IMG/VR virus record: IMGVR_UViG_3300020057_000070
Location: 1 to 41,005 of that record
Source: a virus
Reading direction: 5' to 3' (one strand)
Length of the DNA: 41,005 nucleotides
Shown here: one piece after another, positions 1-16,197 of the stretch
Numbering within the stretch: the first letter of the stretch is position 1
How the letters are laid out: each line of letters begins with the position of its first letter
Made by a program: the position numbers and the translations under genes
Notes under the pieces: model-generated
What the model saw: only the letters and a program-made list of their open reading frames with translations
Database searches by the model: none
Told to the model about the DNA's origin: nothing

Positions 1-452
1 CCCACCCCCCGTCCAATTTTGAGGAGCAGCTTCCCCGCCTTGCTGAAGGCCTTTCCTGATGCGAGGAGTGGACGCGGGCGCTGTGACGAGCTGATGATCT
101 GAGCCTTCGTGCGCCGCACGTGTTCGGTGGGGATGGCGATCGCGCGTCCGGTGCGAGGCGTCTTCACGTCACCATCCTCGAACTTGGCAAGGAAGTCGTG
201 CTCGGGATCGACGCGCACCACCGCCTCCAGCCTCTCCTTCGTGCTGAAGTCCTCGCGCGTGCGCTTGATGGTGCGCTTCACGAACGCGGCCCGCCGCAGG
301 GTGAACCTTCCGCCCAATGATTCCTGAATGGCGCGTTGCGCATCGTTGGCCACGTCGTTCAGGGCCGTCGATGTGGCGAAGCGGATCTGCCCCTCTAGGC
401 CCGCGAGCGCTTGGGTGATCTCCTTCGCATCGACTGTGACGTCGTACCTCAT
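1..452 (-). CDS. Phage tail/neck morphogenesis protein (gp10-like), N-terminal part, cut by the window edge
   Basis: I translated this frame directly: it opens with ATG at 452 (MRYDVTVDAKEITQAL) and stays open to base 1, giving 150 residues of an incomplete protein. It has the look of the HK97 gp10 / minor tail protein group: a helical start, a basic stretch (FVKRTIKRTRED), then a segment naming a 'DFLAKFEDGD' loop and 'GRAIAIPTEHVRRTK'. Such proteins act at the head-tail junction during virion assembly. Its start overlaps the stop of the upstream glycosyltransferase gene (ATGA), so it is in the same operon. The fragment at the right end of the window (40871-41005) looks like its C-terminus, though the two frames are off by one base if the ends are simply joined. 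The family call is from sequence character only. Confidence 0.7.
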   Translation of the reverse strand, partial: MRYDVTVDAKEITQALAGLEGQIRFATSTALNDVANDAQRAIQESLGGRFTLRRAAFVKRTIKRTREDFSTKERLEAVVRVDPEHDFLAKFEDGDVKTPRTGRAIAIPTEHVRRTKAQIISSSQRPRPLLASGKAFSKAGKLLLKIGRGV

Positions 453-1849
453 GACGCTCCCTCCTGGTGTGGCCACCCGGCCTGTATCCGCGCGGCGACG
501 TCCGCCACCACGCCGGACCAATCTCCTCCCCGTGTTTGACGCACGAGTCTCAGCCCCCCGTACCAGGGCGTCGTCTCGATATGCAAACCCCAACGGAAAT
601 CAGGCGATGCGGCGAGCAACCCCAACGTTGGAATCCCGAGCGCGCCGGCCAGATGCAAGGGCGAGGAGTCCACGGTGATCACGCCGTCGAGCGCTTGATA
701 ACAGCTCGCGGACGCAAGATAGTCCGGGCAGCGGTCACGGATCTCCGTAAGCCGGGGGTCTGACACAAGCCCACGCTCGTTGAACGTGAGGTTGCTCCAC
801 GTCACGTCAGGAAGCGCGAGCAACGGGGCGAGTGCCTCGAATGGGACAGAGCGCGTCCCGTCCCGCTTGTGGGTCGGAGAGCCCGCCCAGCAGAGACCCA
901 GCGCGCGCGTGTCAGTGATGCGACGGGCGCGTGGGGCGTAGAGGTAGGGGCTGTACAAGACCTGCCGAGCCGAGAGGCCGAGTCGATCGACGGTGGACAT
1001 GATCGGGACGTGCGCGTCGGCGTCCGGCAGGAGGTCCGCCTGCTCGGAGAGCGGGATCGCGGCGTCGATGAACCGCACCGTGACGCCCGGGAAGCTGTGC
1101 TGCAGCAGGGGCGCCAGCGCTTCGTGGCGAACGATGAGCGTCACTCGCTGCGAGAGCGACTGCATGCGGGCCAGGAAGCGCGCGTACTGGATCATATCGC
1201 CGGCGCCCTGCTCTCCCGTCACGATGAGGTGATCGACCGGCGTGCCGTCCCACGCGGGCACCAGCTTCGGCAGGCCATGGTCGCGCAGATGCCCCGGCAT
1301 CAGCCACCGATACTCGTAGAGACGCCACGTCTCCTCCCAGCGACCCAGCAGTCCGTATACGTGCGACAGGTTGTACTGGCCCGTCGGGTCCGCAGGGTTG
1401 AGCGTGAGCGCGGTGTCGAAGGCTGCGAGCGCGCCCTCGACGTCGCCCAGGGCGAGCCGGCAGTTGCCAAGGTTGGTCCACGCCTGAGAGTGCGCGGGCT
1501 CCATGTTGACGGTCTGCTGGAATCGCGTCGCCGCCTCCTCGAAGCGACCGAGCCCTTCGAGCACGACGCCGAGGTTGTAGCGTGGATCGGGCCACAAGGG
1601 TTTGTGCAGGATCACGTCGGGGAGGATGTCGAGCACGGCGGTCGGGTCACTGGTGCGCTGGTAGTGCAGCAGCGCGCCCATCATGCGCGCGTGCCAGTGC
1701 GGCGGGTACTTCTCCTCGAGCTCGACGTAGCACGCGGCTGCCGTCTCAGCGTCGCCAGAGTTGTGCGCCTGGACCGCCTTGGCGAGCAGCGCTGGGTCCG
1801 GCGTGCGGCGCGGATCCCAGGAGCGGTGTGGTGGGCGGCGGGCTCTCAC
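449..1849 (-). CDS. TPR-repeat glycosyltransferase (GT9/heptosyltransferase-like C-terminus)
   Basis: A 466-residue protein. Residues of roughly the first 200 form tetratricopeptide repeats (for example 'PRYNLGVVLEGLGRFEEAA', 'AWTNLGNCRLALGDVEGAL'). The C-terminal half carries features of TPR-linked glycosyltransferases related to GT9: 'LIVTGEQGAGDMIQYARFL' and a late 'VDSSPLHLAGALGIPTLGLL' followed by an aromatic-rich 'PWYGGLRLVRQ'. It probably transfers a sugar from an activated donor to a surface glycan or to a virion protein; the acceptor is unknown. I chose GTG at 1849 because it overlaps the TGA of the FkbM gene (GTGA), and the longer open frame upstream is low-complexity shadow. It overlaps the next gene by ATGA. 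Together with the FkbM gene it forms a glycan-modification pair inserted between early genes and the packaging genes. Confidence 0.82.
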   Translation of the reverse strand: MRARRPPHRSWDPRRTPDPALLAKAVQAHNSGDAETAAACYVELEEKYPPHWHARMMGALLHYQRTSDPTAVLDILPDVILHKPLWPDPRYNLGVVLEGLGRFEEAATRFQQTVNMEPAHSQAWTNLGNCRLALGDVEGALAAFDTALTLNPADPTGQYNLSHVYGLLGRWEETWRLYEYRWLMPGHLRDHGLPKLVPAWDGTPVDHLIVTGEQGAGDMIQYARFLARMQSLSQRVTLIVRHEALAPLLQHSFPGVTVRFIDAAIPLSEQADLLPDADAHVPIMSTVDRLGLSARQVLYSPYLYAPRARRITDTRALGLCWAGSPTHKRDGTRSVPFEALAPLLALPDVTWSNLTFNERGLVSDPRLTEIRDRCPDYLASASCYQALDGVITVDSSPLHLAGALGIPTLGLLAASPDFRWGLHIETTPWYGGLRLVRQTRGGDWSGVVADVAARIQAGWPHQEGAS

Positions 1850-2646
1850 CCGGGACACTCCACCGCGGATTCCAACGGCTGCGGCCAGAGCTGCACCAGG
1901 TGCTCGACCTCCGGGACGTCGCGCGGATTCTCCGGGTGCACGCAGAGCCAATTGACCGACACGACGTGCGCCCAGCGCACGTCCGTCTCGGCGTAGTAGT
2001 TCTCGGGGTTCCAGAGCGGCGGCTGGTGCTCCCAGATGTGGTAGCCGGCCTCCATCAGCCACGTAAAGAGCGCGCCCCGTTGCGCCGGCCGGTCGGCTTC
2101 GATGTAGAGGACCGGCAGATGCGTCGTGATCGTCTCGATCGCGCCCTGCAGCACCGCCAGCTCGGAGCCCTCGACATCGGCCTGCAGGACGTCGAGCGAC
2201 TGGAGGCCGAGGCTGTCGACGCTCAGGATCGGCACCGCGTCGTTGCCCTCCCCCACAGACACCCCCCCCCTATTCGCGATTCGCGTGGGGTCCATTTTCG
2301 GGATGCGAACCACACCACGCTCCGCGCCCACCGCATACCGGAACGTCTCGACGTGGAACAGGTCGTTGAGGGCGAGGTTGGCGCAGAGCAGGTGATAGGT
2401 GTGCAGTTGCGGCTCGAAGGCGACGACGCGACCGATCGCGCCCACCGCCTGCGCGATCGGGATGACGAGTGCGCCGATGTTGGCGCCAGCTGCCAGCACC
2501 ACGTCCCCAGTGCGGAGCATCGAGCGCAGCAACTGGATCTCGCACTCGCCGTACTCCCCGCAGTGCATGAACGCCTCGCCGACGTACAGGTCGCGGCTGT
2601 TGACCAGCATCGGGCCGTAGCGGCTGTGCTGAATCGTGTTGATCAT
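1846..2646 (-). CDS. FkbM-family SAM-dependent methyltransferase
   Basis: A 266-residue protein with an FkbM-like plan. The SAM-binding loop is AAGANIG (residues 52-58; the usual form is DVGANIG, so the acidic residue is replaced by Ala), with an acidic residue in VVAFEPQ (E78) and the family's QADVEGSE motif at about 156-162. Family members O-methylate sugars or lipid-linked glycans. Start ATG 2646 overlaps the stop of the VRR-NUC gene (ATGA), and its TGA overlaps the GTG of the TPR-glycosyltransferase, so the two glycan genes are translationally coupled. Codons 126-129 are written by nine consecutive G residues (2262-2270 on the plus strand read as C), a tract prone to slippage. That suggests on/off switching of the enzyme. 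Confidence 0.85.
   Translation of the reverse strand: MINTIQHSRYGPMLVNSRDLYVGEAFMHCGEYGECEIQLLRSMLRTGDVVLAAGANIGALVIPIAQAVGAIGRVVAFEPQLHTYHLLCANLALNDLFHVETFRYAVGAERGVVRIPKMDPTRIANRGGVSVGEGNDAVPILSVDSLGLQSLDVLQADVEGSELAVLQGAIETITTHLPVLYIEADRPAQRGALFTWLMEAGYHIWEHQPPLWNPENYYAETDVRWAHVVSVNWLCVHPENPRDVPEVEHLVQLWPQPLESAVECPG
2262..2270 (-). repeat. Poly-G(9) tract inside the FkbM gene
   Basis: Nine uninterrupted C on the plus strand (G on the coding strand) within an otherwise ordinary coding segment. As written the frame is open. Gain or loss of one base would truncate the methyltransferase soon after residue 129 and would remove the overlap coupling to the glycosyltransferase start. This is the typical form of a contingency tract, although none has been shown here. 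Confidence 0.6.
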
Positions 2647-3035
2647 CGGTCGCGATTCCTGGGTGGCGTAGGTTTCGTCGTCCGCCGCACACCGCGCGCG
2701 GCCCACAGCTCGAGGAACAGCTGTCCCAGATCCCGCGCCAGGTCCTTCGAGTGCCGCAGCGCGATCAGTAGGTGCTTGAGCTCTTGCACGCCACCGACGC
2801 ACACGAGCCCACCTGCGAGATGCTCGAGCGTGAGTAGTTCGAGCTGGTCCTGGCTGAGCTTCCCGTCGCTCGCCTTGCACTCGAAGCGGATCTTCGCGCC
2901 GAGGACGTAGTATTCGCGGTCCGCGATCCCCGCAGTCTGCTTGCTCGCCCTGGGCTGGGAGTAGCGCACAATCCGTCCCCCGTGCTGCTGCACGAGGGCG
3001 TCGCACTGCTGCTCCACGTGGCGTTCGAGGATCAT
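2643..3035 (-). CDS. VRR-NUC domain nuclease
   Basis: A 130-residue protein. The core 'GIADREYYVLGAKIRFECKA' matches the PD-(D/E)xK layout of VRR-NUC phage nucleases, with D39, E52 and K54 as the likely catalytic set, followed by 'DGKLSQDQ'. These small stand-alone nucleases cut structured or single-stranded DNA and are common beside phage replication genes. The start ATG 3035 overlaps the upstream TGA (TGATG). The last 20 residues are basic and rich in Arg/Pro. It fits a role in replication or recombination intermediates, inferred from family and position. Confidence 0.8.
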   Translation of the reverse strand: MILERHVEQQCDALVQQHGGRIVRYSQPRASKQTAGIADREYYVLGAKIRFECKASDGKLSQDQLELLTLEHLAGGLVCVGGVQELKHLLIALRHSKDLARDLGQLFLELWAARGVRRTTKPTPPRNRDR

Positions 3036-3301
3036 CACGCTTTCCTCTGGGAACACACGACGCTATCCCACCGGAGCCGGGGCATGATGACGTAATCCCG
3101 CAGCTCGTGCACCCCGTCGTCCTCGCTGAGCGTCACGAGCGTCGACACCTCGCAGTCGATGAGGACGCAGTCCGCGACGCGCAGCAGCGTGCGGCAGACG
3201 TGCGCCTGCTCCTCGCGCTGCCGCCACCAGCCGCCGAGGATGACGCCGGACACGCTGCCCGAGAAAAACAGACAGGCGGGGAGAATCCAGTCAGGCAGCA
3301 C
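3035..3301 (-). CDS. Small membrane-anchored protein, unknown function
   Basis: An 88-residue protein that I do not recognise. Residues about 5-25 (WILPACLFFSGSVSGVILGG) form one hydrophobic segment near the N-terminus, followed by a soluble tail with three Cys. I chose GTG 3301 because a strong Shine-Dalgarno sequence (AAGGAGG) lies just upstream; the longer open frame continues through a neighbour in another frame and is not credible. It overlaps the 176-residue gene by 11 bases and abuts the nuclease gene. Confidence 0.6.
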   Translation of the reverse strand: MLPDWILPACLFFSGSVSGVILGGWWRQREEQAHVCRTLLRVADCVLIDCEVSTLVTLSEDDGVHELRDYVIMPRLRWDSVVCSQRKA

Positions 3302-3821
3302 TCGACGGTCCCTCCTTGCGCACGCTCGGCGATTCGAGTGCTGCCGCGTCCTCCGCGGGCGTGTCGGGCGCGGGCTTCGTGACCGCCATGCAGTCGTCGC
3401 ACAGCCGCCGCCCGTCCGGCGCGCTGTAGTCGCTCGTGTGCGGGCACGGGAGTTCGTGGTGGTCGTCACTGTCGTGCGCGCTGGCCAGCGCGTCTCGCTC
3501 GACCTCGACCGCGTAGTGCGTCGCCGCGATGTGTGACGGGCCGCCCGATACGCCTGTTGTGGCGACCCGGACCTTCGTGTCGTTGTCGCTGTTCCACGCG
3601 CGAGCAGCGTCACGCGCGACGAGGCGCGTCACTCTCAGCTCCTCCTCCAGCGCCGCGATGCGCGCTTGTGCGCCGGCGAGGGCGGTCAGCGCGTAGCCGT
3701 GGTGACCGTACCCGTAGTCAGTCAGCACGCCCCGGACTTTGGGGTAGGGTGACTGCCACACATTCGGCTCCGTCTGTGTCCACACTCGCCCATCCACGGT
3801 CGCCGTCAGTGGCTCGCTCAT
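3291..3821 (-). CDS. Hypothetical protein with coiled coil and Cys/His cluster
   Basis: A 176-residue protein, not recognised. A central helical segment (ARIAALEEELRVTRLVARDA) reads as a short coiled coil. The C-terminal part has 'CPHTSDYSAPDGRRLCDDC', a possible zinc-binding knuckle. The ARIAALEEE motif resembles 'ARVAALE' in the 178-residue gene at 4547-5083, and both genes carry a C-terminal Cys cluster, so this operon may have reused a helical module. Start taken at ATG 3821; GTG 3890 is an alternative. Confidence 0.6.
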   Translation of the reverse strand: MSEPLTATVDGRVWTQTEPNVWQSPYPKVRGVLTDYGYGHHGYALTALAGAQARIAALEEELRVTRLVARDAARAWNSDNDTKVRVATTGVSGGPSHIAATHYAVEVERDALASAHDSDDHHELPCPHTSDYSAPDGRRLCDDCMAVTKPAPDTPAEDAAALESPSVRKEGPSSAA

Positions 3822-3920
3822 GGGGCCTCGTGCGCGCGGGCGGCGTCGGGCTTGAGGTGTCGGCTTGCGAGATCGGTCCAGCGGTAGCACGTCGGCGCGG
3901 TCGGGGCGTTAGCAGCAGGA

Positions 3921-4550
3921 TTAAGCATGCGTCACCTGATTAAATGCGACGGCCAACACCCACGGGTTCGCGTCCCAGCGGTACCCACGCTTCGCGTTCA
4001 GGGAGTCCCATAGGCACGCGAAACACGCGACCGCATCCGTGCCGCTCACCGCGTCGCCTGCCACGTAACAGCCGGCGAGAAGTCCGCCGAGCGCCCGCAC
4101 GCCCTCTGCACGAGCGTCGTCCTCGCTGATGTCCTGCACTCGCTGCACTCGCACGCTGATGACCTCAAGCGTGATGCGCGACGCCCAGCGAGCCATGAAG
4201 ATCGAGGGGCGCCACCGCGTTGGTGCGACATCGTAGGTGGCGCCGCTGCGGTAATGCACCCGCCAGGTGTCTGTGCGCGGGTCCTCCCGTGTCACGTCGT
4301 CGCCGTTCGCATCTTCAAGCGCGAACGTCTCGCGCACCCACAGCCGGTCGCCGGGCACGTAGGGCAGTCGCAACGCCACGCCGTGCCCATCTTCCAGACC
4401 ACTCGGCGAGAACGGGGATGCGCGCACGCCACTGGATGGTTGCGGCTTCACCACGCGCCGCGTCTGCGTCTTCGTGCCGCCGAGGACCGAATGCACCATC
4501 GCACCGGAGAACAGGATCGGGTGCTCGCGTACCTGGTGAGTCTCGCTCAT
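3921..4550 (-). CDS. ASCH-like phage protein
   Basis: A 209-residue protein with the hallmarks of a phage ASCH-type group: 'HPILFSGAMVHSVLGGTKTQ' then TRRVVKPQP, 'YVPGDRLWVRETF', 'PSIFMARWASRITLEV' and 'WDANPWVLAVAF'. ASCH folds are related to PUA and are thought to bind RNA; the role of the phage versions is not established. The start overlaps the upstream TGA (ATGA). It sits in a run of small early genes, where such proteins are commonly found. Confidence 0.75.
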   Translation of the reverse strand: MSETHQVREHPILFSGAMVHSVLGGTKTQTRRVVKPQPSSGVRASPFSPSGLEDGHGVALRLPYVPGDRLWVRETFALEDANGDDVTREDPRTDTWRVHYRSGATYDVAPTRWRPSIFMARWASRITLEVISVRVQRVQDISEDDARAEGVRALGGLLAGCYVAGDAVSGTDAVACFACLWDSLNAKRGYRWDANPWVLAVAFNQVTHA

Positions 4551-5083
4551 GGTGCCACTTCATCGCCGTTAGGCGTCGGCGGAAGCACGCGGCCGCCGCA
4601 GCCGTGGCAGAACTGCACGTTGTTCTCCTCGATGTCGCCGCCAATGAACGAGCACATCTGCCCACACGCGGTATCGTAGTTTCCGTCGGGTTCACCGTTC
4701 ATGTGCTCCCACTGGCACTCCTTGCCCTCCAGCGCCGCGACGCGCGCCTCGGCCTGCTCCGCGCGGACCGTCGCGGCCCCCCAGCGCTTGTTTAGCGACA
4801 GCACGACCTCGGCCGCGTCGTCCGTGTCGACGAGCGGGTCACCGTTTTCGTTCCTGCGGACGAATCGCCCGCAGTCCGTCGATGGCGGTTCGCCCAGCAT
4901 CGCCTCCGTGTTGTCGGCGCACACCTCGAAGCACGCGGCGTCCACCCTCGCGACGCGCGCCTGAGCTGCGACGAGGGCGGCGGCGAGGGCGTCCAACGCG
5001 GCACAGGCGGCCGCGTACCGGCGGTTCGGGTTCAGACTCCAAACAATCGCGCACTGTGCGGCCTCGAGCTGTTCTGCGTTCAT
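4547..5083 (-). CDS. Hypothetical early protein, C-terminal zinc-ribbon-like Cys pattern
   Basis: A 178-residue protein, not recognised. The N-terminal two thirds is helical and Ala/Arg rich (ALAAALVAAQARVARVDAAC; VRAEQAEARVAALEGKE). The C-terminus has 'CGQMCSF' and 'FCHGCGGRVLPP', a likely zinc ribbon of four Cys. Its start ATG 5083 overlaps the stop of the next upstream gene. It belongs to the chain of overlapping early genes. Confidence 0.6.
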   Translation of the reverse strand: MNAEQLEAAQCAIVWSLNPNRRYAAACAALDALAAALVAAQARVARVDAACFEVCADNTEAMLGEPPSTDCGRFVRRNENGDPLVDTDDAAEVVLSLNKRWGAATVRAEQAEARVAALEGKECQWEHMNGEPDGNYDTACGQMCSFIGGDIEENNVQFCHGCGGRVLPPTPNGDEVAP

Positions 5084-5403
5084 GGGACATCCTTCGCTTT
5101 GGCCGCGTCGAGTTCCAAGCGAGACACCGGGCGCCCGCGCACGGGCTCGATCCCGAGTTGCTGCTGTGTGTATACCGACATACGAGTGAGCAGCCACTGC
5201 AGTCGCAGCGTGTCGGCGCTATCGGCCGACATCATCTCCGCGACGCGCGCCTGAGATTCGGCGAGGGCGGTGAGGACGTGCTGGACGCAGTTGTCCATCG
5301 TCGAATCGGCACTCACGCCCCCCCGGAACCACAGCGCCTCGTCCAGCACGCGCACCGCGTTCGCCACGATCTGCGCCTTCGTCACCGTCATCGGCTCGGT
5401 CAT
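5080..5403 (-). CDS. Hypothetical early protein
   Basis: A 107-residue protein, not recognised. It is mainly helical (VTKAQIVANAVRVLDEAL; CVQHVLTALAESQARVAEMM), with no membrane segment or Cys cluster. ATG 5403 is preceded by GGAG at good spacing. It is separated by only four bases from the gene upstream and overlaps the one downstream. Confidence 0.6.
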   Translation of the reverse strand: MTEPMTVTKAQIVANAVRVLDEALWFRGGVSADSTMDNCVQHVLTALAESQARVAEMMSADSADTLRLQWLLTRMSVYTQQQLGIEPVRGRPVSRLELDAAKAKDVP

Positions 5404-5407
5404 GGTT

Positions 5408-5656
5408 TCATCTCCGTTGCCGCGCTGTGTCCACGGCGAGGCAGGCGTAGTTGAACGTGTGCAGAAAGCTGTCGACCACATCGGCGTCTCCGTATTTAAT
5501 CACGAACCGCTGCACCCGCTCGCGGTCAGCGGCGATGGTCACGCGTTGCACGTTGCGCAGTCCGTCGGTCAGCTCCAGGCCCGCACTCGTGTCGCGGTAC
5601 GCGCGCAGTAGCTGCCTGTCACCAAGCGGGCACGTCGGCACCTTGTCGTCGCTCAT
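5408..5656 (-). CDS. Hypothetical early protein
   Basis: An 82-residue protein, not recognised, with a balanced composition and mixed helix/strand pattern (VQRFVIKYGDADVVDSFLHT). It overlaps the lipoprotein gene's stop with its ATG (ATGA). Confidence 0.55.
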   Translation of the reverse strand: MSDDKVPTCPLGDRQLLRAYRDTSAGLELTDGLRNVQRVTIAADRERVQRFVIKYGDADVVDSFLHTFNYACLAVDTARQRR

Positions 5657-5910
5657 CGCGCCCTCCGCGGCAACCGGAAATAGTGCGGCGCGAGACTGCT
5701 ATCCAGCTGCACCGACACGACCACGTCTCGCCCACCCAGGGCCCAGACGTCAACCTGCGCCCAGCCGAGCGCCGCGATCGCGGCATCGAACCTCCGCGTC
5801 GCATCTTCGAGCGTCCGCGGGGCCACGGGCGCGCTGCTCTCCTCGCAGCCGGTGAGCAGTGCGATAGCGAGCGCGACGCTCGCGAGTCGTGCAACGGACG
5901 GCCTACGCAG
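5653..5910 (-). CDS. Small lipoprotein, probably initiated at CTG
   Basis: An 85-residue product with a clear lipoprotein signal: a basic start (RRPSVAR), a hydrophobic core (LASVALAIAL) and a lipobox LLTGC, giving a mature protein of about 63 residues anchored through Cys. No ATG, GTG or TTG in this frame fits between the upstream gene's end and the signal core. A CTG at 5910 with AGGAG six bases ahead of it, overlapping the TAG of the replication gene, gives the expected MRRPSVAR start; this start is inferred. Function unknown. Phage lipoproteins at the cell envelope often block superinfection, but nothing in the sequence proves it. Confidence 0.6.
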   Translation of the reverse strand: MRRPSVARLASVALAIALLTGCEESSAPVAPRTLEDATRRFDAAIAALGWAQVDVWALGGRDVVVSVQLDSSLAPHYFRLPRRAR

Positions 5911-6727
5911 GAGCAGCTCCTGGCAGTGAGCCTCGTGAGGGGTGGTGGGGCGACAGCAGGGCGCCGAGTGCGGTGGTCGTCCCTCGTCGTCGCGCGCGGA
6001 GGAATTGATCGGCAAGTTTGGCTTCGACCAGGCGGTTCCGGATCCCGGCGCCGGCGGGGCGCTGGCGCCACCCCTCGTTGTCCGCGTCGAGCAGGGTGTC
6101 CACTTCCTGCTCAGCCTCGCGCCGGACAGCCGGGCACGACTCGACCCAGGCGTTGACGTGGGCCACGGTGACCGGCCCCGGGTCAGGCGGCGGCGTGGAC
6201 GTGGCCCCGCCACGGCCAACGGCCGCGACGACGCCCCCCGTAGTGGGGGCTCCGAAGGAGCCCCCTACGGGGTCTCTTTCTACTTCTGTGGAGCTGGGCG
6301 ATAGCTGAGCAATAGCTGAGGTATTGCGTTTCGGGCGCGGCCGGCCCTGTTTCCAGCCGCCTTTCTTGCCCCGCTCGACGGCCGAGGTATGGCGCGCGAG
6401 CTGCGCGGCGTAGAGGTCGGCCACCCACGCGCAGCGGAGGCGGCCCGGGGTGTCCGGGTCTTCGGTGAAGTGCTCCCGGACGGTGCCGAGCACCTTGCGC
6501 CAGGTCGGGCCCAGCAGCCGCGCGAGCGCGGGCTCCGACGCCGGCAGCGTGCCGGGCTCGTCGCCTCGGACGGCCGCGTTCCAGCTGCACAGCACGCAGA
6601 CGAGCAGCGCGCCCGTCGCCTCGAGGGAGAGGAGCGCGGTGCGCGAGATCCATTGGTCGGCGTCGAGCGGGAACCATGCGAGCGGCGCCGTCAGAGCCGG
6701 GATGGGGACAGGGGTCATGGTTCTCAT
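5903..6727 (-). CDS. DUF1376-like replication-associated protein
   Basis: A 274-residue protein. The N-terminal ~110 residues have the plan of DUF1376/YdaU phage proteins: 'AWFPLDADQWISRTALLSLE' then ATGALLVCVLCSWN, an acidic/Pro linker, 'ALARLLGPTWRKVLGTVREH' and a downstream RCAWVADLYAAQ. These proteins occupy the replication-initiator position in many temperate phages. A basic GKKGGWKQGRPRPKR linker follows, then a low-complexity stretch and a C-terminal helical part. The start overlaps the stop of the wHTH gene. It is the best candidate for the replication initiator, by family and position. Confidence 0.65.
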   Translation of the reverse strand: MRTMTPVPIPALTAPLAWFPLDADQWISRTALLSLEATGALLVCVLCSWNAAVRGDEPGTLPASEPALARLLGPTWRKVLGTVREHFTEDPDTPGRLRCAWVADLYAAQLARHTSAVERGKKGGWKQGRPRPKRNTSAIAQLSPSSTEVERDPVGGSFGAPTTGGVVAAVGRGGATSTPPPDPGPVTVAHVNAWVESCPAVRREAEQEVDTLLDADNEGWRQRPAGAGIRNRLVEAKLADQFLRARRRGTTTALGALLSPHHPSRGSLPGAAPA

Positions 6728-7200
6728 GCGTGGGGATTCCTCTCGCGCTCGAGCGCCTGCCCGAACGCCAGCCAGTCGTAGGAGTCACGGTACATGGCGT
6801 TGGCGAGCACCTTGCCCCCGTCGCGCACGTAGTGGATGGGGCGGCCCTGCTCGGTATAGCCGATCACGGGCTCGAGCACGCTGCCGGCCTTCAGCAATCG
6901 ATCGACGCACCCGCACACGGTCTGCAGCTTGATGCCGGTGCGGTCGGCGATTTCCTGGCGGGTGCGGCCGAGCTGCGAGTTGCCGGTGACTTCCCAGCGG
7001 CATCGCTCGTCCGTCGTCGGGCCCTGCGACGCGCGAGTGGGAAGACTCGCGCGATGCGCGGCGCGCTGGGTCTCGTGTATCTTGCGCGGCGCAGGGTGCT
7101 CGCGTGGCCGCGGCGCCACCGTCACGACGCCCACGGTCTGCGCCGGCGCGCCGAGCAGGTCCAGCTGCTGCACGCGCATGGTCTGTGGCTTGGGGCTCAT
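6724..7200 (-). CDS. Winged-helix DNA-binding protein
   Basis: A 158-residue protein. The C-terminal half has a winged-helix pattern: 'LGRTRQEIADRTGIKLQTVC' then GCVDRLLKAGSVLEP, with a likely wing at YTEQGRPIHYVRDGG. The N-terminus is unstructured and basic. Placed directly before the DUF1376-like gene (ATGA overlap), it may assist replication or regulate the operon. It is not a recognised family. Confidence 0.65.
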   Translation of the reverse strand: MSPKPQTMRVQQLDLLGAPAQTVGVVTVAPRPREHPAPRKIHETQRAAHRASLPTRASQGPTTDERCRWEVTGNSQLGRTRQEIADRTGIKLQTVCGCVDRLLKAGSVLEPVIGYTEQGRPIHYVRDGGKVLANAMYRDSYDWLAFGQALERERNPHA

Positions 7201-7652
7201 CGGAATCCCTCCGCGCGGTAGACGTCGACGGGGGACTCGGCGCCGTCCGTCTCCTCGTCGTCCGATGGGACCGGCTCGGCGACGACAGGCTCCGCACGGC
7301 GTGACAGCACCAGCGGTGCCGCGTCGTCGTCGTCCGGCAGGTCGGCGCCGAGGTCGGGCGCGTCCGCGAGCGACAACAGGTGCCGCACGAGATCCGCGCG
7401 CCGGGTGACCCGGTGTGGCCAGATCCCGACCGCCTCCGCCGCACGGGCGAACGCGACGCGGCGCACGTCGTCGACTCGACCGCGCCAGTCGCCCGCGTCC
7501 GCGCGCCAGTCGTCTGCGTACGCGCGCCACGCGTCCGCCTCCAGCGCCCGCCCCGCATCCGCCTCCAACGCCCGCCCCAGCCGGTAGCCCGTCGCCGCGG
7601 CCAGCAGAGCGACGGCGACGGTGGCAAGTACCAGCATCGTCACGTTAGACAC
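7197..7652 (-). CDS. Membrane-anchored protein with short internal repeats
   Basis: About 151 residues, not recognised. A hydrophobic segment (MLVLATVAVALLAAATGY) near the N-terminus is followed by near-repeats GRALEADA/GRALEADA/WRAYADDWRADAGDWRG, which look like a short helical stalk, and an acidic C-terminus. Start taken as GTG 7652, with AGGA upstream; ATG 7637 is equally possible. It overlaps the upstream gene's end by eight bases. Confidence 0.55.
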   Translation of the reverse strand: MSNVTMLVLATVAVALLAAATGYRLGRALEADAGRALEADAWRAYADDWRADAGDWRGRVDDVRRVAFARAAEAVGIWPHRVTRRADLVRHLLSLADAPDLGADLPDDDDAAPLVLSRRAEPVVAEPVPSDDEETDGAESPVDVYRAEGFR

Positions 7653-8256
7653 GGGCGCCATCCTGCGGTTCATTCCACCAGTAGGCCAGCATCGGGCGAC
7701 GTTTCGGTGAGAGGATCGCGCAGACCTGCAGCCGCGGGTCCTTCGCGTGCGCGCGCGCACATGCGCTGAGCGTGTTCTTGTCCTTCTGTACGAGCTTCGA
7801 CCACTGGACGAGCGTGACCGCTTTCGCGACCTGGCGAGGGAGCGCGTACAGGTTGAGCTGCGCCCGCTCCTGCATGGTGTGGCGGCGCCGGTACGCCTTG
7901 CCCCACGCGATCACCGCGGCCTCCGGCACGACCGCGTAGCGCCCGATCATCGCGGCGGGGATCTCTTTACTCGCGATCGCCGCGCGGATCAAGTTCATCG
8001 ACCGGCGTGTGGCTTTCGCAGACTGCGTGAGGTTGACGCACCGCTCCTGAATGAGCGTCGCAAGGCGCGCGTCGTCGACCTCGCCGATCGACGGCGCCGG
8101 CGGCGCGGTGGCGAGCCGCTCCTGCAGCGCGTGCAGCTGCAGCAGGCGCCGCTCGCACACCGTGCACCACTCCTGCGTCGAGCCGTCGGGGTGTTTCCCG
8201 CGCTCGACGCGGCCCTGGCAGCCGGGCACCCGGCAGGCGACAGCGGGCCTACCCAC
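7645..8256 (-). CDS. Zinc-ribbon and helix-turn-helix protein
   Basis: A 203-residue protein. The N-terminus holds a zinc ribbon (ACRVPGCQGRVERG and WCTVCERR, four Cys). A middle helical part resembles a helix-turn-helix excisionase or adapter ('QSAKATRRSMNLIRAAIASK', then EIPAAMIGRYAVVPEAAVIAW). A likely DNA-binding regulator; exact family unknown. It is embedded in the overlapping early gene chain. Confidence 0.6.
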   Translation of the reverse strand: MGRPAVACRVPGCQGRVERGKHPDGSTQEWCTVCERRLLQLHALQERLATAPPAPSIGEVDDARLATLIQERCVNLTQSAKATRRSMNLIRAAIASKEIPAAMIGRYAVVPEAAVIAWGKAYRRRHTMQERAQLNLYALPRQVAKAVTLVQWSKLVQKDKNTLSACARAHAKDPRLQVCAILSPKRRPMLAYWWNEPQDGARV

Positions 8257-8590
8257 GTCGCACCTCCCGGAGGTGGGCGCCGCAGCCGCGTATCGTGACC
8301 GCGATGTGCGCCTTGAGCGCCTCCATGCGGAGCCGCTCTTCCTCGGAGATGTGCTTCGGCACGCGCACCGACAGGGCGATCTCGGACGCAGTCTCGCGCT
8401 CGATCTCGCGCGCGGCCTCGCGGATGGCCGCCAGGTGGTGTACGGCGCCGAGCACGACGCACACCATCACAGAGCCCGCCAGGAGCTGCGGCGTGCGGCT
8501 GGTCAGCTGGGCAACGAAGAATAGGGCGACCCAGGCCAACGTGACGAGGACGGGGTCGCGGTAGCGCCGCACCATACGGGGGGAAATCAT
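8249..8590 (-). CDS. Small two-segment membrane protein
   Basis: A 113-residue protein. Two hydrophobic segments (LVTLAWVALFFVAQL and LLAGSVMVCVVLGAVHHL) are followed by a charged helix (EAAREIERETASEIALSV). It resembles small phage inner-membrane proteins in architecture only. ATG 8590 overlaps the stop of the Cys-rich gene upstream. Confidence 0.58.
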   Translation of the reverse strand: MISPRMVRRYRDPVLVTLAWVALFFVAQLTSRTPQLLAGSVMVCVVLGAVHHLAAIREAAREIERETASEIALSVRVPKHISEEERLRMEALKAHIAVTIRGCGAHLREVRRG

Positions 8591-8778
8591 TTCCGGAGCC
8601 TCCAGCAGACGGGGTCGAGGGCATGGCGCCCGGTGTGCGGCGCGTGCTGCGGGCACGTGTCGGCCGGGCGCTGGATGGCGTGCGTCAGGATGCAGGGCGC
8701 GGACAACGTGGCGCGGCGCGTGTCGGTGTTCCACCACACGCACGTGCGGCACGTCGGCCGGGCGGCGGCGGGCGTCAT
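8587..8778 (-). CDS. Cys-rich mini-protein
   Basis: A 63-residue protein with six Cys and three His (TCRTCVWW; APCILTHA; TCPQHAPH; VCWRL), suggesting a small zinc-bound fold. It overlaps both neighbours by four bases, which supports real coding. Function unknown. Confidence 0.58.
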   Translation of the reverse strand: MTPAAARPTCRTCVWWNTDTRRATLSAPCILTHAIQRPADTCPQHAPHTGRHALDPVCWRLRK

Positions 8779-9152
8779 CGGATCGCCTCGTGACTGTCAG
8801 AGGGGTGTGGTACCGCACGGCGCACAGCGGACGGCATCTCGGCGGCCGCGAGCGAGACGGACACGCCCGGGCGACGCCATGGGCGCTGTGCGAGCCGCTC
8901 GGCGATCGCGAGCACGTGCGCCGGCAGCTGGCGCCGCATGCGGATCGCGAGCGTGACCAGATACTCGGCCTGCCGTGTCGTGATCTGTGCCGCCGGGTCG
9001 TGCTCCGCCGAGCCGGACAGCTTCCGGGCCAGGCGATTCTCGGTGGACCCGGGCACGTAGCGCACGCAGAGCGGTGAGAGGGCGAGCGCCATGGTGCGCT
9101 CGTCCCCGGTCATGTCGCGGCGCGGAAGCGCGCGGGTGCGTCTCGGGGTCAT
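8775..9152 (-). CDS. Hypothetical early protein
   Basis: A 125-residue basic protein, not recognised. 'TTRQAEYLVTLAIRMRRQLP' reads as an amphipathic helix of the sort found in small phage DNA-interacting proteins. ATG 9152 overlaps the upstream TGA; two later ATGs in frame are alternatives. Confidence 0.55.
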   Translation of the reverse strand: MTPRRTRALPRRDMTGDERTMALALSPLCVRYVPGSTENRLARKLSGSAEHDPAAQITTRQAEYLVTLAIRMRRQLPAHVLAIAERLAQRPWRRPGVSVSLAAAEMPSAVRRAVPHPSDSHEAIR

Positions 9153-9562
9153 GCGGCACCGTCCGCAACGAGCTCCGCAACGGCGCCTGGTGGCCGCTCG
9201 TACCCGCCGGAGATCGTGACGCGCGCAGGCGCGGGGCCCTGCTGCCAGGAGCCATCGGGCTGCGGGTAGTAGAAAGTGAGCCCGAGCGTGATCGCGACCG
9301 CCACCTCGCACCGCGCGCCGACGGAGGCTTCCCAGCCTGGCAACATGGCGATCGCACTGCATCGGGCGAGGTGGAGCAGGTCCTCACGCAGGTAGGCAGC
9401 CGGCGAGATGTTCGGGTCGTTGTCGAACAGGCGCCCCACGTCGACCGGCGAGACCACGGTCCACCAGAGGTGGCGAAAGTTCCGCGCGGCCGCCTCGAAC
9501 GCGGGGACGTTGAGTTGCGGCTGCCCGCGCATCGGGCCCGCGAGGTAGATGCGGCGGTTCAT
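9149..9562 (-). CDS. DUF4406 protein (nucleoside deoxyribosyltransferase-like)
   Basis: A 137-residue protein starting 'RRIYLAGPMRGQPQLNVPAF', the standard opening of DUF4406. It continues with 'WWTVVSPVDVGRLF', 'PAAYLREDLLHLARCSAIAM' and 'GARCEVAVAITLGL', where the Glu matches the active-site position of deoxyribosyltransferase-like folds. The biochemical role of DUF4406 is not settled; nucleotide processing or base modification is plausible. It lies directly after two DNA methyltransferases with overlapping ends. Confidence 0.85.
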   Translation of the reverse strand: MNRRIYLAGPMRGQPQLNVPAFEAAARNFRHLWWTVVSPVDVGRLFDNDPNISPAAYLREDLLHLARCSAIAMLPGWEASVGARCEVAVAITLGLTFYYPQPDGSWQQGPAPARVTISGGYERPPGAVAELVADGAA

Positions 9563-9655
9563 GCGCCCAGCTCCAGCACTTCCTGTCGGCATCGTTCGGC
9601 CGCGATCTCGCAGTAGCGCTCCTCAATCTCGATGCCGATGGCTGTGCGGCCTAAG
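9559..9655 (+). repeat. Copy 1 of a direct repeat shared by the two methyltransferase 3' ends
   Basis: About 95 bases starting tcatgcgcccagctccagca are repeated at 10266-10362 with few changes, including the stretch around 'agtagcgctcctcaatctcg'. A second shared stretch marks the two 5' ends (about 10225-10269 and 10960-11006). Such repeats could recombine and delete or swap the methyltransferase between them. Confidence 0.8.
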
Positions 9656-10269
9656 TCCTTCGCCGCGCGGAGGGTTGAGCCGGAGCCAGCAAATGGGTCA
9701 AGCACCGTCGCGTTGACCGGAGCAGCAAACTCCACAAGCCGGGCCATAATCTCGACCGGCTTCTCGTGTGGGTGTCGATCCCGCATTGCTTCCCCCGTGC
9801 GCCTGCCCCTGAGCACCGACAGCAAGGGTGACGCGGGGCGGCTGTCGGCAACGACCGACGCGACAATGGCTGTCTCGTGTGAATAACGGATCGTATACCC
9901 CAGCCCCGGACGCCCCTTGTCCCAAACTACCTCGCCTCGGATGGTGAGTCCTGCGTCTGCCATCACGTCCTCCGCGTCTCGCCTTTTGCGCGGCGCGCAA
10001 AAGGCGACGACCCAGCCGCTTCTGCTCACAAGTGGAACCGCGAGCTGCAGCGCGTCGGACATCGCTGAGAGATCGGCATCGCCAGCTATAGTATGGCCCC
10101 GCCCATCTGCCCGCCCGGCGAGCTGACGGCGCCCGTACCCACGGCCCAACGCCTCCGTGCCATACGGCGGGTCCGTCACAACCGCACACACCTCGCCCAG
10201 CGTCGGCAGCACCTCCCGGCAGTCCCCGTGGTAGATGGTGACGTGCGCGTCTTGGTAGTAGGGGGTCAT
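9559..10269 (-). CDS. DNA methyltransferase (beta class, N4/N6)
   Basis: A 236-residue SAM-dependent DNA methyltransferase. The catalytic motif TDPPYG (residues 32-37) comes first and the SAM motif DPFAGSGST (191-199) last, which is the beta-class order. The middle carries the target-recognition part, and HPHEKP precedes the SAM motif. No restriction endonuclease is next to it, so it is probably an orphan enzyme that modifies phage DNA against host restriction. Its first 16 and last 30 residues are almost the same as those of the neighbouring methyltransferase. Confidence 0.9.
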   Translation of the reverse strand: MTPYYQDAHVTIYHGDCREVLPTLGEVCAVVTDPPYGTEALGRGYGRRQLAGRADGRGHTIAGDADLSAMSDALQLAVPLVSRSGWVVAFCAPRKRRDAEDVMADAGLTIRGEVVWDKGRPGLGYTIRYSHETAIVASVVADSRPASPLLSVLRGRRTGEAMRDRHPHEKPVEIMARLVEFAAPVNATVLDPFAGSGSTLRAAKDLGRTAIGIEIEERYCEIAAERCRQEVLELGA

Positions 10270-10362
10270 GCGCCCAGCTCCAGCACTTCTTGCCTGCAGC
10301 GTTCGGCTGCTATCTCGCAGTAGCGCTCCTCAATCTCGATGCCGATGGCTGTGCGGCCCAAC
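10266..10362 (+). repeat. Copy 2 of the methyltransferase direct repeat
   Basis: The partner of 9559-9655 at the end of the 246-residue methyltransferase gene. Differences cluster at third codon positions, which suggests selection on the encoded C-terminus as well as common origin. Confidence 0.8.
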
Positions 10363-11006
10363 GACTTCGCGGCGAAGATTGTGGAGCCGGAACCCATGAA
10401 CGGGTCGAGGATGGTCCCGCCAATCGGTGCGAGGGGTGCAAGCCATTGCATGACTTCGAGCGGCTTCTCGGCAATGTGGACCTTTCCGTGCACGGTGGGA
10501 CGCCGACACACTCCAACCATCGAGACGGAGTCCTCCGCGACATCCATCGGTCCGGCCGAGCCCCATACGATGTATTCGCATTGTGCGCGTAGCCCTCGCA
10601 TACGAGGGCGTGCGCCGTTCGTCTTGTCCCATATCCCGATGCCACGCCACACCCACCCGCCAGCTTGCACGGCGTCGGTCGTGATGGGTAACTGCCGCCA
10701 GTCACTGAACACCGCGAACATAGCCCCCGGCTTAGCGCTGCGGAGCGCCGCTGCCATCCAGAGCGACACCCACGCGAGATACGAGCGCTGGTCTCGATTG
10801 TCCCCGCTGAACTCGGGGCGGAGTGCTTGGGTGCCGCTCCGGACATACTTAGACACCGTGTCACTCATTCGGTCGCCACGGAAGGCGCCACCAGACGAGT
10901 ATGGCGGATCAGACACGAGCGCATCGAACGGGCCTACCTCGGGAATCAGAAACAGGCTTTCCCCGTGGTAGATCGTGACGTGCGCGTCTTGGTAGTAGGG
11001 GCTCAT
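10266..11006 (-). CDS. DNA methyltransferase (beta class), paralogue of the next gene
   Basis: A 246-residue enzyme with SDPPYS (residues 32-37) and DPFMGSGST (201-209). The start (YYQDAHVTIYHG) and end (GRTAIGIEIEERYCEIAAER) are copies of those in the downstream methyltransferase, while the middle differs, so the two enzymes likely recognise different sites. It is the first gene after the attachment region and therefore the first gene at that end of the prophage. It overlaps the downstream gene by ATGA. Confidence 0.9.
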   Translation of the reverse strand: MSPYYQDAHVTIYHGESLFLIPEVGPFDALVSDPPYSSGGAFRGDRMSDTVSKYVRSGTQALRPEFSGDNRDQRSYLAWVSLWMAAALRSAKPGAMFAVFSDWRQLPITTDAVQAGGWVWRGIGIWDKTNGARPRMRGLRAQCEYIVWGSAGPMDVAEDSVSMVGVCRRPTVHGKVHIAEKPLEVMQWLAPLAPIGGTILDPFMGSGSTIFAAKSLGRTAIGIEIEERYCEIAAERCRQEVLELGA

Positions 11007-11090
11007 GCGGCGGCCCCGAAGGCCGCGGCCGCAACGCCGGGCACGCCCAGGGGGCGGATCGGCGCCGCAGGTTCCCGGACTTCTCCCCGG

Positions 11091-11112
11091 ACACCCTCGG
11101 CAGGGAGGGTGT
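11091..11112. other. Hairpin next to the tRNA-Lys-like fragment
   Basis: A perfect 8-base inverted repeat, acaccctc / gagggtgt, around a six-base loop. No T-run follows on either strand, so it is not a standard terminator. It lies eight bases from the tRNA-Lys-like half-gene and could be part of the attachment-site architecture or a weak terminator. Confidence 0.4.
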
Positions 11113-11119
11113 AAGTGTA

Positions 11120-11161
11120 TGACCCGGCCGGGTCTCGAACCCGGGACCTACGGATTAAAAG
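11120..11161 (-). other. tRNA-Lys(TTT) 3' half, possible attachment-site core
   Basis: On the minus strand this reads as the 3' half of a tRNA: anticodon loop CTTTTAA, anticodon-stem 3' strand, variable loop, a perfect T arm (CCGGG-TTCGAGA-CCCGG), acceptor 3' strand CCGGGTC and discriminator A. The matching 5' acceptor strand and D arm are absent upstream, so it is not a functional tRNA gene. Phages that integrate in tRNA genes carry just such a 3' half. No encoded CCA is seen. Confidence 0.7.
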
Positions 11162-11324
11162 CAGGGAACCGTCCACCAGAACGGACGTCCCCCATTCTGC
11201 CCCCAGTTCGGAGGGCTCGGACCGCGTAGAGGGCGACATGGTCGGCCTCCTAGCGCGGTTGATCTACGGTGATTCCACGGGATTGCGGGCCATTCCCGGG
11301 GATTGAGGCCTGTGTTCCAACGAC

Positions 11325-11366
11325 CTCATAATCCGTCGGTCCTGGGTTCGAGCCCCAGAGGGCCCA
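11325..11366 (+). other. tRNA-Met(CAT) 3' half, probable attP core
   Basis: On the plus strand this reads anticodon loop CTCATAA, stem TCCGT, a T arm CTGGG-TTCGAGC-CCCAG, acceptor 3' strand AGGGCCC and discriminator A. The five bases before the anticodon loop pair only partly with the stem, and no D arm or 5' acceptor (GGGCCCT) precedes it. It is the tRNA-like element closest to the integrase gene (87 bases from its stop), so it is the better candidate for the attP crossover core. Confidence 0.72.
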
Positions 11367-11424
11367 CTCCGCTCCCATTTGCAGCTGCTCCCTCATTTCT
11401 CCCCCAATTCCTCGATTTTCTGCC

Positions 11425-11452: not shown

Positions 11453-12550
11453 TTACGCGGTCTTGCTTCCCTTCGCGGCCTGCGCCGCATCCAGCACTTT
11501 GCCGATCGCATCGCTCGCGACCGCTGCGTTCTGCACGCGCGTGTAGCGGTCCGTCGTGCCCACCGTCTTGTGCCCGAACAGATCCTTGACCCGGAGCGGT
11601 GAGACCCCCGCGTCGGTCGCCCACTGGCCCGCCGCGTGGCGGATGTCGTGCAGCCGGAGCCGCACCCCCGCCGAGCGACAGGCGTCCTTCCAGTGCTGCC
11701 ACAGCGCGCGGTACTGGAGCGGCGCCGGGACCGCGGCGACCACCCAGGGCCAGTAGGCCTCGGGCACCTGGACGTGGCGGGCGCCGGTCTTCCCCTCGAC
11801 GGGGACGATCACGCGCTTCGTCTCCATCTGCAGATGGTCGGCGACCGTGAGGCCGAGGTATTCCCCGACCCGGAGCCCCGTCACCGCCAACGTGATGAAC
11901 GCGGCCTGGATGTCGGCCCGCGGTTCAGCACCAACGATCCGCCAGAACGTGTCCGGCGAGAGGTCCGGCACCCGGACCACCTCCGCCTCGCGCTGCAGCT
12001 TGGCCATCAGCGCGCGACGGAACGGGTGGTACTTGTCGCCCAGGACGAGCGAGCACACCCGCGACAGCGCCGAGATCATGCGATTCCAGTCGGCCGCGCT
12101 CTGCTCCTCCAGCCAGCGGTCGCGGACGAGCGCCCACGGGACCTTCTCCAGCGCGAGGAACGGCGCGTCGGCCGGCAGCCACTCGGCGGTGCGCCGCTGC
12201 AGCGACTTGCGACTGACGGCGTAGCGCTTCCGCGACGTGGCCTTGCGTGCCATCGTGACCTCGAGGGCTTCCCACGTCGCCCACAGTGGCCGCAGGAGCT
12301 GCGCACGCGACAGCACGCTGGGGCCCAGCAGCTCGCCCCGGCGGTCCAGGTCCACCAGCTCGGCGATCGTGACGGCGCCCGCCACCAGCGCCCGCAGGAC
12401 CTCCACGTGGCCGTCGGCGATCAGCTTGTCGACCACCGACTCGTAGCGCCGCAGTTGCTGCTTCGTGGTGACCGCCGGCGACAGCTCCAGCTTCTCGGTG
12501 ATGCCGAGTCGCTTCAGGTGTCGCCGGATGCGGAGGTCACGCGGCGTCAC
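11453..12550 (-). CDS. int: Tyrosine-type integrase
   Basis: A 365-residue tyrosine recombinase that inserts and excises the phage genome. The catalytic set is visible: R227 (TGLRVGEYLGL), K254 (EGKTGAR, likely beta-hairpin Lys), H301 and R304 (HDIRH), H327 (LFGHKTVGTTDRYT) and Y336. The first ~200 residues form the arm- and core-binding region. GTG 12550 was chosen because it overlaps the TGA of the preceding gene; the longer open frame reads through that gene in another frame. The gene ends beside tRNA-like attachment sequences, as expected. It is co-directional with the early operon, so it is expressed early unless a separate promoter exists. Confidence 0.93.
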   Translation of the reverse strand: MTPRDLRIRRHLKRLGITEKLELSPAVTTKQQLRRYESVVDKLIADGHVEVLRALVAGAVTIAELVDLDRRGELLGPSVLSRAQLLRPLWATWEALEVTMARKATSRKRYAVSRKSLQRRTAEWLPADAPFLALEKVPWALVRDRWLEEQSAADWNRMISALSRVCSLVLGDKYHPFRRALMAKLQREAEVVRVPDLSPDTFWRIVGAEPRADIQAAFITLAVTGLRVGEYLGLTVADHLQMETKRVIVPVEGKTGARHVQVPEAYWPWVVAAVPAPLQYRALWQHWKDACRSAGVRLRLHDIRHAAGQWATDAGVSPLRVKDLFGHKTVGTTDRYTRVQNAAVASDAIGKVLDAAQAAKGSKTA

Positions 12551-12774
12551 GCGCAGACCACGCGCTGCCGGTCCGCGATCCAGCGCCGGACGCGGGACTC
12601 GTAGTACCGCACCACCTTGCGCGAGAGCTGCTCGCGCGGGCAGTGCAGCAGCACCCACTCCTTGGAGACGGCGCCGAGGAACACCTCGGCGGCGATCCAT
12701 GCCGCTGAGCGGAACGCTTCGCTCGGTGGGATGATCGCCGCGGGGCGCGCGCATGGGAGGTGGAGGACGGTCAC
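12547..12774 (-). CDS. Small protein upstream of integrase (possible excisionase-like)
   Basis: A 75-residue protein, ending in a strongly basic helix (LSRKVVRYYESRVRRWIADR). Its position directly before int with overlapping stop/start, small size and basic C-terminus fit a DNA-binding excision or directionality factor, but no clear excisionase motif is present. It overlaps the upstream gene by four bases. Confidence 0.55.
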   Translation of the reverse strand: MTVLHLPCARPAAIIPPSEAFRSAAWIAAEVFLGAVSKEWVLLHCPREQLSRKVVRYYESRVRRWIADRQRVVCA

Positions 12775-15620: not shown

Positions 15621-15670
15621 TCTTTGACCCTGCGGCATCTGCCGTTGGAAGTCGTTTCACGTGGCACGTC

Positions 15671-15694
15671 GTCACAATATGACCTTTATAGTCA
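15671..15694. promoter_or_regulatory. Candidate operator at the repressor/Cro switch
   Basis: Two overlapping dyads share the half-site TGAC: gtca-caata-tgac (15671-15683) and tgac-ctttata-gtca (15680-15694). They cover the -10 and spacer of the leftward promoter, where a repressor would block it. Confidence 0.45.
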
Positions 15695-15702
15695 GGAGTC
15701 AA
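15674..15702 (-). promoter_or_regulatory. Early leftward promoter (Cro promoter)
   Basis: On the minus strand TTGACT (15702-15697), 17 bases, then TATTGT (15679-15674). Predicted start is near 15667, leaving a leader of about 30-47 bases before the Cro-like gene. It overlaps the 5' end of the repressor frame on the other strand, a compact switch layout. Confidence 0.65.
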
Positions 15703-16197
15703 GCCCTGAAATCACCCACGTCGATCGATTATTCCGTGCGCGAGGAGCAGAAGCTCCGCATGTACCGCGCGCGCGCCGGTCTGGAGGAGCGAGAAGGGCG
15801 ACGCCTTTCGCTCGATGAGATCGGCCAGCGTGTCGCCGTCGCCCAAGGGCGCGGTAGCGCCTACGCGAATACCGTCGTCCGACGCTGGATCGAAGGCATC
15901 AGCGAGCCGGAGAACACGGAGACGTGGCTGGCCGTGGCCACCGTGTTCGGTGTCTCGGCCGGCTGGCTCGCGTTCAGAGCCGGGCCCATGTGGGGGAGCG
16001 CAAGCACGGGCGAGCCGCGCATCTCCGGCGCCGATCCGTATGAGGATGGCGTCGACTCGAACACAGCTATCGCCGCCCGGAAGGCGGCGGAGCGCCCCCC
16101 CGCATCAGCCCGAGCGGTGGGTCAATCCGGTCCAGCCACGTCTGCAGCCGGGCCACGATCTGCTCCTCCATCGCGGGCGAAACCAAAGAAGCGTTGA
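15679..16197 (+). CDS. XRE-type phage repressor
   Basis: Up to 172 residues on the plus strand, divergent from the Cro-like gene. The DNA-binding part runs 'LSLDEIGQRVAVAQGRGSAY' then ANTVVRRWIEGISEPENTETW, then FGVSAGWLAFRAG, an XRE-family helix-turn-helix as in CI-type repressors. The C-terminus is Ala/Pro/Arg rich, with no S24 peptidase motif, so RecA-stimulated self-cleavage is unlikely. The start is uncertain: GTG 15661, ATG 15679, GTG 15736 and ATG 15760 are all in frame. The last has GAGGAG upstream. The early promoter overlaps the first two. The tail overlaps a gene on the other strand. Confidence 0.72.
   Translation: MTFIVRSQALKSPTSIDYSVREEQKLRMYRARAGLEEREGRRLSLDEIGQRVAVAQGRGSAYANTVVRRWIEGISEPENTETWLAVATVFGVSAGWLAFRAGPMWGSASTGEPRISGADPYEDGVDSNTAIAARKAAERPPASARAVGQSGPATSAAGPRSAPPSRAKPKKR

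Follow-up and report, generated by a model that had tools for sequence, protein, structure and literature searches.

Phages and genomic islands that integrate into tRNA genes include an anticodon-loop class of attP sites (Islander, PMC4383910). In this class, a tyrosine integrase acts on an attP that carries the 3' part of a tRNA gene, so that integration rebuilds the gene after a crossover in the anticodon loop, and each attP has one tRNA fragment. Switching of targets during integrase evolution is stated in the same work (PMC4383910) and is known from comparing trees with targets. Two other systems share some features with the locus described here. Helper-embedded PICIs have doubled arm motifs at attP (PMC10111431), and tRNA-dependent lysogeny, in which a phage with a short core carries a complete tRNA of the disrupted isotype, has been described (PMC10865867).

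We analyzed a stretch of 41,005 nt (the window) from a temperate virus that infects soil Gemmatimonadota bacteria. As in the Islander class, it has a tyrosine integrase, a core that is identical to host tRNA genes, and relatives of its integrase at the same tRNA genes. Unlike the Islander class (PMC4383910), it has two tRNA fragments, which are from different tRNAs and are in opposite orientations. The original prediction was that two opposite-facing tRNA 3' halves lie beside one integrase, and we found both, at the coordinates and on the strands that had been predicted. The features of the region are:

10266 to 11006, minus strand: N6/N4 DNA methylase gene, beyond the Lys core (Pfam, E = 8e-25)
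11073 to 11092, minus strand: motif C, a doubled arm-like motif beyond the 3' end of the Lys core (P' side)
11091 to 11112, minus strand: perfect hairpin (8 bp) that follows the Lys core
11111 to 11119, minus strand: TACACTTAC, directly after the Lys core, with the family's ACTTA(C/G) box
11120 to 11161, minus strand: tRNA-Lys(UUU) 3' half, which matches complete Gemmatimonadota tRNA-Lys genes at 42/42 positions; the second attP core
11187 to 11212 (approximate), minus strand: doubled arm-type motif A, period 11, on the P side of the Ile2 core
11272 to 11308, plus strand: imperfect direct repeat of 17 nt, shortly before the Ile2 core
11325 to 11366, plus strand: tRNA-Ile2(CAU) 3' half, which matches complete CAT tRNA genes at 42/42 positions
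11388 to 11411, minus strand: doubled arm-type motif B, on the P' side, between the Ile2 core and the integrase
11453 to 12754, minus strand: tyrosine integrase of 433 amino acids (Pfam Phage_integrase, E = 5e-15; PHROG integrase)

The Lys half reads CTTTTAATCCGTAGGTCCCGGGTTCGAGACCCGGCCGGGTCA and the Ile2 half reads CTCATAATCCGTCGGTCCTGGGTTCGAGCCCCAGAGGGCCCA. As predicted, each is 42 nt long and has no 5' half: it starts at the first anticodon-loop base and ends at the discriminator base. The two are identical at 32 of the 42 positions. ARAGORN found no complete tRNA in the 41,005 nt, and the halves' scores against the Rfam tRNA model are below threshold; both results are expected because these sequences are tRNA halves. 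This also distinguishes the locus from tRNA-dependent lysogeny (PMC10865867): a phage, an integrase, and a host tRNA-Lys(UUU) are involved in both cases, but the window has 42-nt halves instead of a short core, and no complete tRNA of the disrupted isotype.

To look for the matching host genes, we searched a genome collection with a pattern that spans both halves. This matched 21 stretches, mostly from Gemmatimonadota. The exact Lys 42-mer lies inside complete tRNA-Lys genes (L012, L013, L016, L021, and L025), which bears out the predicted Lys(TTT) identity of the minus-strand half. The exact CAT 42-mer lies inside a complete CAT tRNA gene (L017), and one metagenome-assembled genome (MAG) carries both complete genes (L012 and L017). 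Among 179 genomes from one family of Gemmatimonadota, the exact Lys 42-mer is in six and the exact CAT 42-mer is in three; two of the genomes (G003 and G101) have both. All of the matching host genomes are MAGs. Because exact copies (42/42) are found inside complete Gemmatimonadota tRNA genes, neither half is a chance match. In the genome and virus collections, we did not find a close relative or a lysogen of the phage.

The CAT half had been taken for tRNA-Met, which is incorrect. The best E. coli match of the host's CAT tRNA (GGGCCCTTAGCTCAG...) is annotated as tRNA-Ile (80% identity over the full length), so the CAT half is from tRNA-Ile2 and not tRNA-Met. The elongator-type CAT tRNA that adjoins some related integrases has a different sequence. 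tRNA-Ile2 has the anticodon CAU and is read as isoleucine after lysidine modification.

Direct searches of viral and genome contigs did not find any close relatives of the window's integrase. Relatives were instead recovered through tRNA-core patterns and a family alignment, in which the R, H, and Y catalytic-type positions are invariant. The search of the phylum found members of this family in 18 of 395 genomes, and the search with the family alignment found eight phage contigs with a family integrase. The adjoining tRNAs are Lys, Ile2-type CAT, elongator-type CAT (Met), and Leu. In all, this Gemmatimonadota integrase family has tRNA targets of four kinds, and this use of different tRNA genes by related integrases resembles the switching described in PMC4383910. 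The nearest relative in a genome (42% identity, in L007) is 5 bases from a tRNA-Lys, inside a 7.3-kb element that has the tRNA-Lys at one end and a repeat of its 3' half at the other. Complete elements with both ends visible are found at the Lys gene in L007/G004, G031, and G277. Relatives also occupy the Ile2 gene, in G315 (with both ends) and in G052 (with the halves on separate contigs), and the G052 member sits at an Ile2 gene identical to the one that the window's half matches. The relatives are thus not confined to unrelated sites, which would have argued against the original prediction.

The original prediction also proposed comparing the attP regions of relatives. There is one tRNA half per site in each of seven two-ended elements and eight phage contigs, and no other family member with a readable site has a second half. 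Only the window has two. In the tree, the window's integrase belongs to a clade of eight members (support 100/99), and all seven of the others use tRNA-Lys. The Ile2 half, as attP core, is in the place that is usual for this family. The integrase's C-terminus points towards the attP region, and the 3' end of the core faces the integrase's C-terminus in about 23 relatives, as it does for the Ile2 half. In G175, G463, and L139, the integrase lies 5' of a Lys core, as it does for the window's Lys half, which is why the Lys half could be usable. In L105, the integrase is 1.5 kb from the core.

We noticed several other arrangements in the relatives. The 7.3-kb element (L007 1–7669, from a Gemmatimonadota MAG) also has an ORF that by eye resembles a replication protein. 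In L127 (G463:C123) and L052 (G175:C23), the integrase's C-terminus faces a complete tRNA-Lys from its 5' side and a second Lys half lies beyond it, which is the reverse of the layout in most of the family. The Ile2 half (L135, 13489–13529) and the family integrase (L107) of IMGVR_UViG_3300037760_000067 are at opposite ends of the contig, as though a linear contig had been cut near attP. Beside the Lys core of IMGVR_UViG_3300036794_000049, a 209-aa ORF (L134, 6464–7093) has an N-terminus like that of the family integrases, while the remainder looks by eye like a T5orf172/GIY-YIG-type domain; this may be a fusion of an arm-binding domain to a nuclease. Finally, two contigs of G005 (MGR_bin341; L008 1–45 and L013 82–155) meet at tRNA-Lys with identical sequence, which looks like a fork of the assembly graph in the 42-nt core. 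Another half, with two mismatches, is found 645 bp further along. A population with and without an insert may explain this pattern.

Doubled motifs with a period of 11–12 are found on both sides of the core in the family's attP sites. In six relatives (L104, L111, G004, G031, G114, and G223), the doubled flanking motifs have p ≤ 0.015, and the P pair starts 109–131 bp upstream of the core. For the window's Ile2 core, the A pair is at 137 bp and the B pair is at 22 bp. The combined statistic for A and B around the Ile2 core has p = 0.0007 (shuffles) or p = 0.005–0.007 (random places in the phage genome), and motif B versus A has p = 0.0007; these motif tests were partly post hoc, as they were chosen after we had looked at the data. 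A generic search for 11-mer repeats in the att region showed no excess over shuffles, and only the paired flanking statistic exceeded them. In phage L139, two identical 23-mers, 199 bp apart, flank the Lys core. When we compared L139's arm motif to all positions of the 41-kb window, B was the best match (score 12; the next was 9), and the spacing from A to B is 201 bp. The predicted arm-type sites lie on both sides of the Ile2 core; for the Lys core, we did not find them on both sides (p = 0.18–0.26 in the paired-motif test), and there is no P-side arm at the family's distance. The two copies of the 17-nt repeat are possible accessory binding sites, and both rank within the window's top 41 matches to the arm motif. 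We also considered whether the left half-site, ahead of the anticodon loop, could tell the two cores apart, and dropped it because it is too variable across the family. The arrangement of A and B is similar to that in PICIs (PMC10111431), where the crossover region has a co-oriented doubled motif at a fixed distance on either side, but the sequence, host, and integrase differ, and the window has a tRNA core and a second core outside the pair.

The Lys half is a real piece of an attP, with a core and a P' flank, on one side only. The 9-nt TACACTTAC is identical (9/9) to the sequence that follows the Lys core of L139, which also has a similarly placed hairpin. Of 24 family members, 12 have the box (A/G)(C/G)TTA(C/G) in the 45 nt that follow the core, versus 0.29 expected; the box lies at +4 for the Lys half, and the Ile2 half lacks it. 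Motif C matches B at 13 of 16 positions, and none of 593 random stretches was as good. The doubling of C by itself has p = 0.04–0.09, and C ranks weakly (46th in the window) against the L139 motif.

How did two cores come to lie beside one integrase? The original prediction offered two answers: a site with two targets, or a scar left by a change of target. We lean towards a change of target, because the integrase's clade uses only Lys and because the Ile2 core has the full anatomy of an attP while the Lys core has only its P' side. Our preferred explanation, to which we give about an even chance, is that this is a composite attP that arose by a switch from Lys to Ile2, with Ile2 as the current core and the Lys core and its P' flank retained. 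The integrase would have descended from users of tRNA-Lys. The present attP would be centred on the Ile2 half, with the integrase's N-terminal domains binding A and B. The cut would be in the anticodon loop, and integration would restore tRNA-Ile2 with the 3' half supplied by the phage. The ancestral Lys attP would survive as the inverted Lys half with its P' flank (the ACTTAC box, the hairpin, and C). As the Lys half is still identical to the host gene, either the switch happened recently or this half still serves as a secondary core. Points against this explanation are the inverted layout of the two halves, the position of the integrase in G175, G463, and L139, the failure to find a lysogen of this phage or a near relative, the partly post hoc motif tests, and the direction of A and B relative to the Ile2 core, which is opposite to that of all the relatives that we could read.

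We keep dual use as a reading because both halves are intact and exact copies of host genes. A working attP whose one integrase uses either core, to target tRNA-Ile2 or tRNA-Lys with shared arm sites, is possible but somewhat unlikely. The two target genes do co-occur in the same host genomes, the family accepts several tRNAs with a common TAATCC side of the anticodon arm, and cores and arms alternate along the site (arm C, Lys core, arm A, Ile2 core, arm B, and then the integrase). Against this, the Lys core lacks the P-side arm and has a non-significant arm test, and two cores are found in no relative. That such a bispecific attP has two inverted cores and shared, alternating arms, and that both cores are usable by the one integrase, we consider unlikely; if true, it could allow integration when one target is already occupied. 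It is quite improbable that the Lys half and its P' flank belong to a left-hand module (the methylase operon) acquired through recombination with a different phage of the Lys type, and that this integrase never used them. The presence of just the core and P' flank would fit, as would the position of the methylase operon, which stands at the 3' side of the Lys core, where the integrase is in the common layout. However, the integrase's own clade uses Lys, and C resembles site B of the same attP. The Lys core could also be the working one, as in L139 (integrase, P arm, Lys core, P' flank), with the Ile2 half captured later inside the P arm. The clade's targets, the orientation from integrase to core, the 9-nt flank, and the direction of the arms, which point the family's way relative to the Lys core, would all agree with this, but A and B are at the family's spacing around Ile2 and not around Lys, and we find it very doubtful. 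Because the window is a metagenome contig, we also considered an assembly chimera of two phages. The halves share just short exact words, the spacer between them is unique, arm-like motifs with one theme lie on all sides, and the GC content is even, all of which make a chimera highly improbable.

In the literature that we searched, we found no published attP with cores from two different tRNAs. We considered the “two attP sites” of PMC11476347 as a precedent and rejected them, as the text that describes them concerns single-base variants. tRNA targets change frequently in integrase evolution, and the steps by which an attP acquires a new target have mostly been deduced from trees. The window seems to retain both targets in a single attP, unlike the switching described in PMC4383910, and such a site, with the former core still next to its replacement, would be an intermediate that can be tested directly.

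We also considered whether the sequence to the left of the Lys half might be host chromosome. We rejected this because positions 1–11006 are an unbroken run of leftward genes, some of which look phage-like by eye, and the GC content is even. The methylase gene at 10266–11006 is the first gene of this run in the ORF list. On the plus strand before 11114, there is one short open frame, which we looked at as a putative relic of an integrase's tail. Two adjacent N6/N4 DNA methylase genes (9559–11006) have near-identical C-terminal sequences and may have arisen by duplication. Elsewhere in the window, a plus-strand ORF (15661–16197) resembles, by eye, a helix-turn-helix repressor, and it runs opposite to most of the phage genes.
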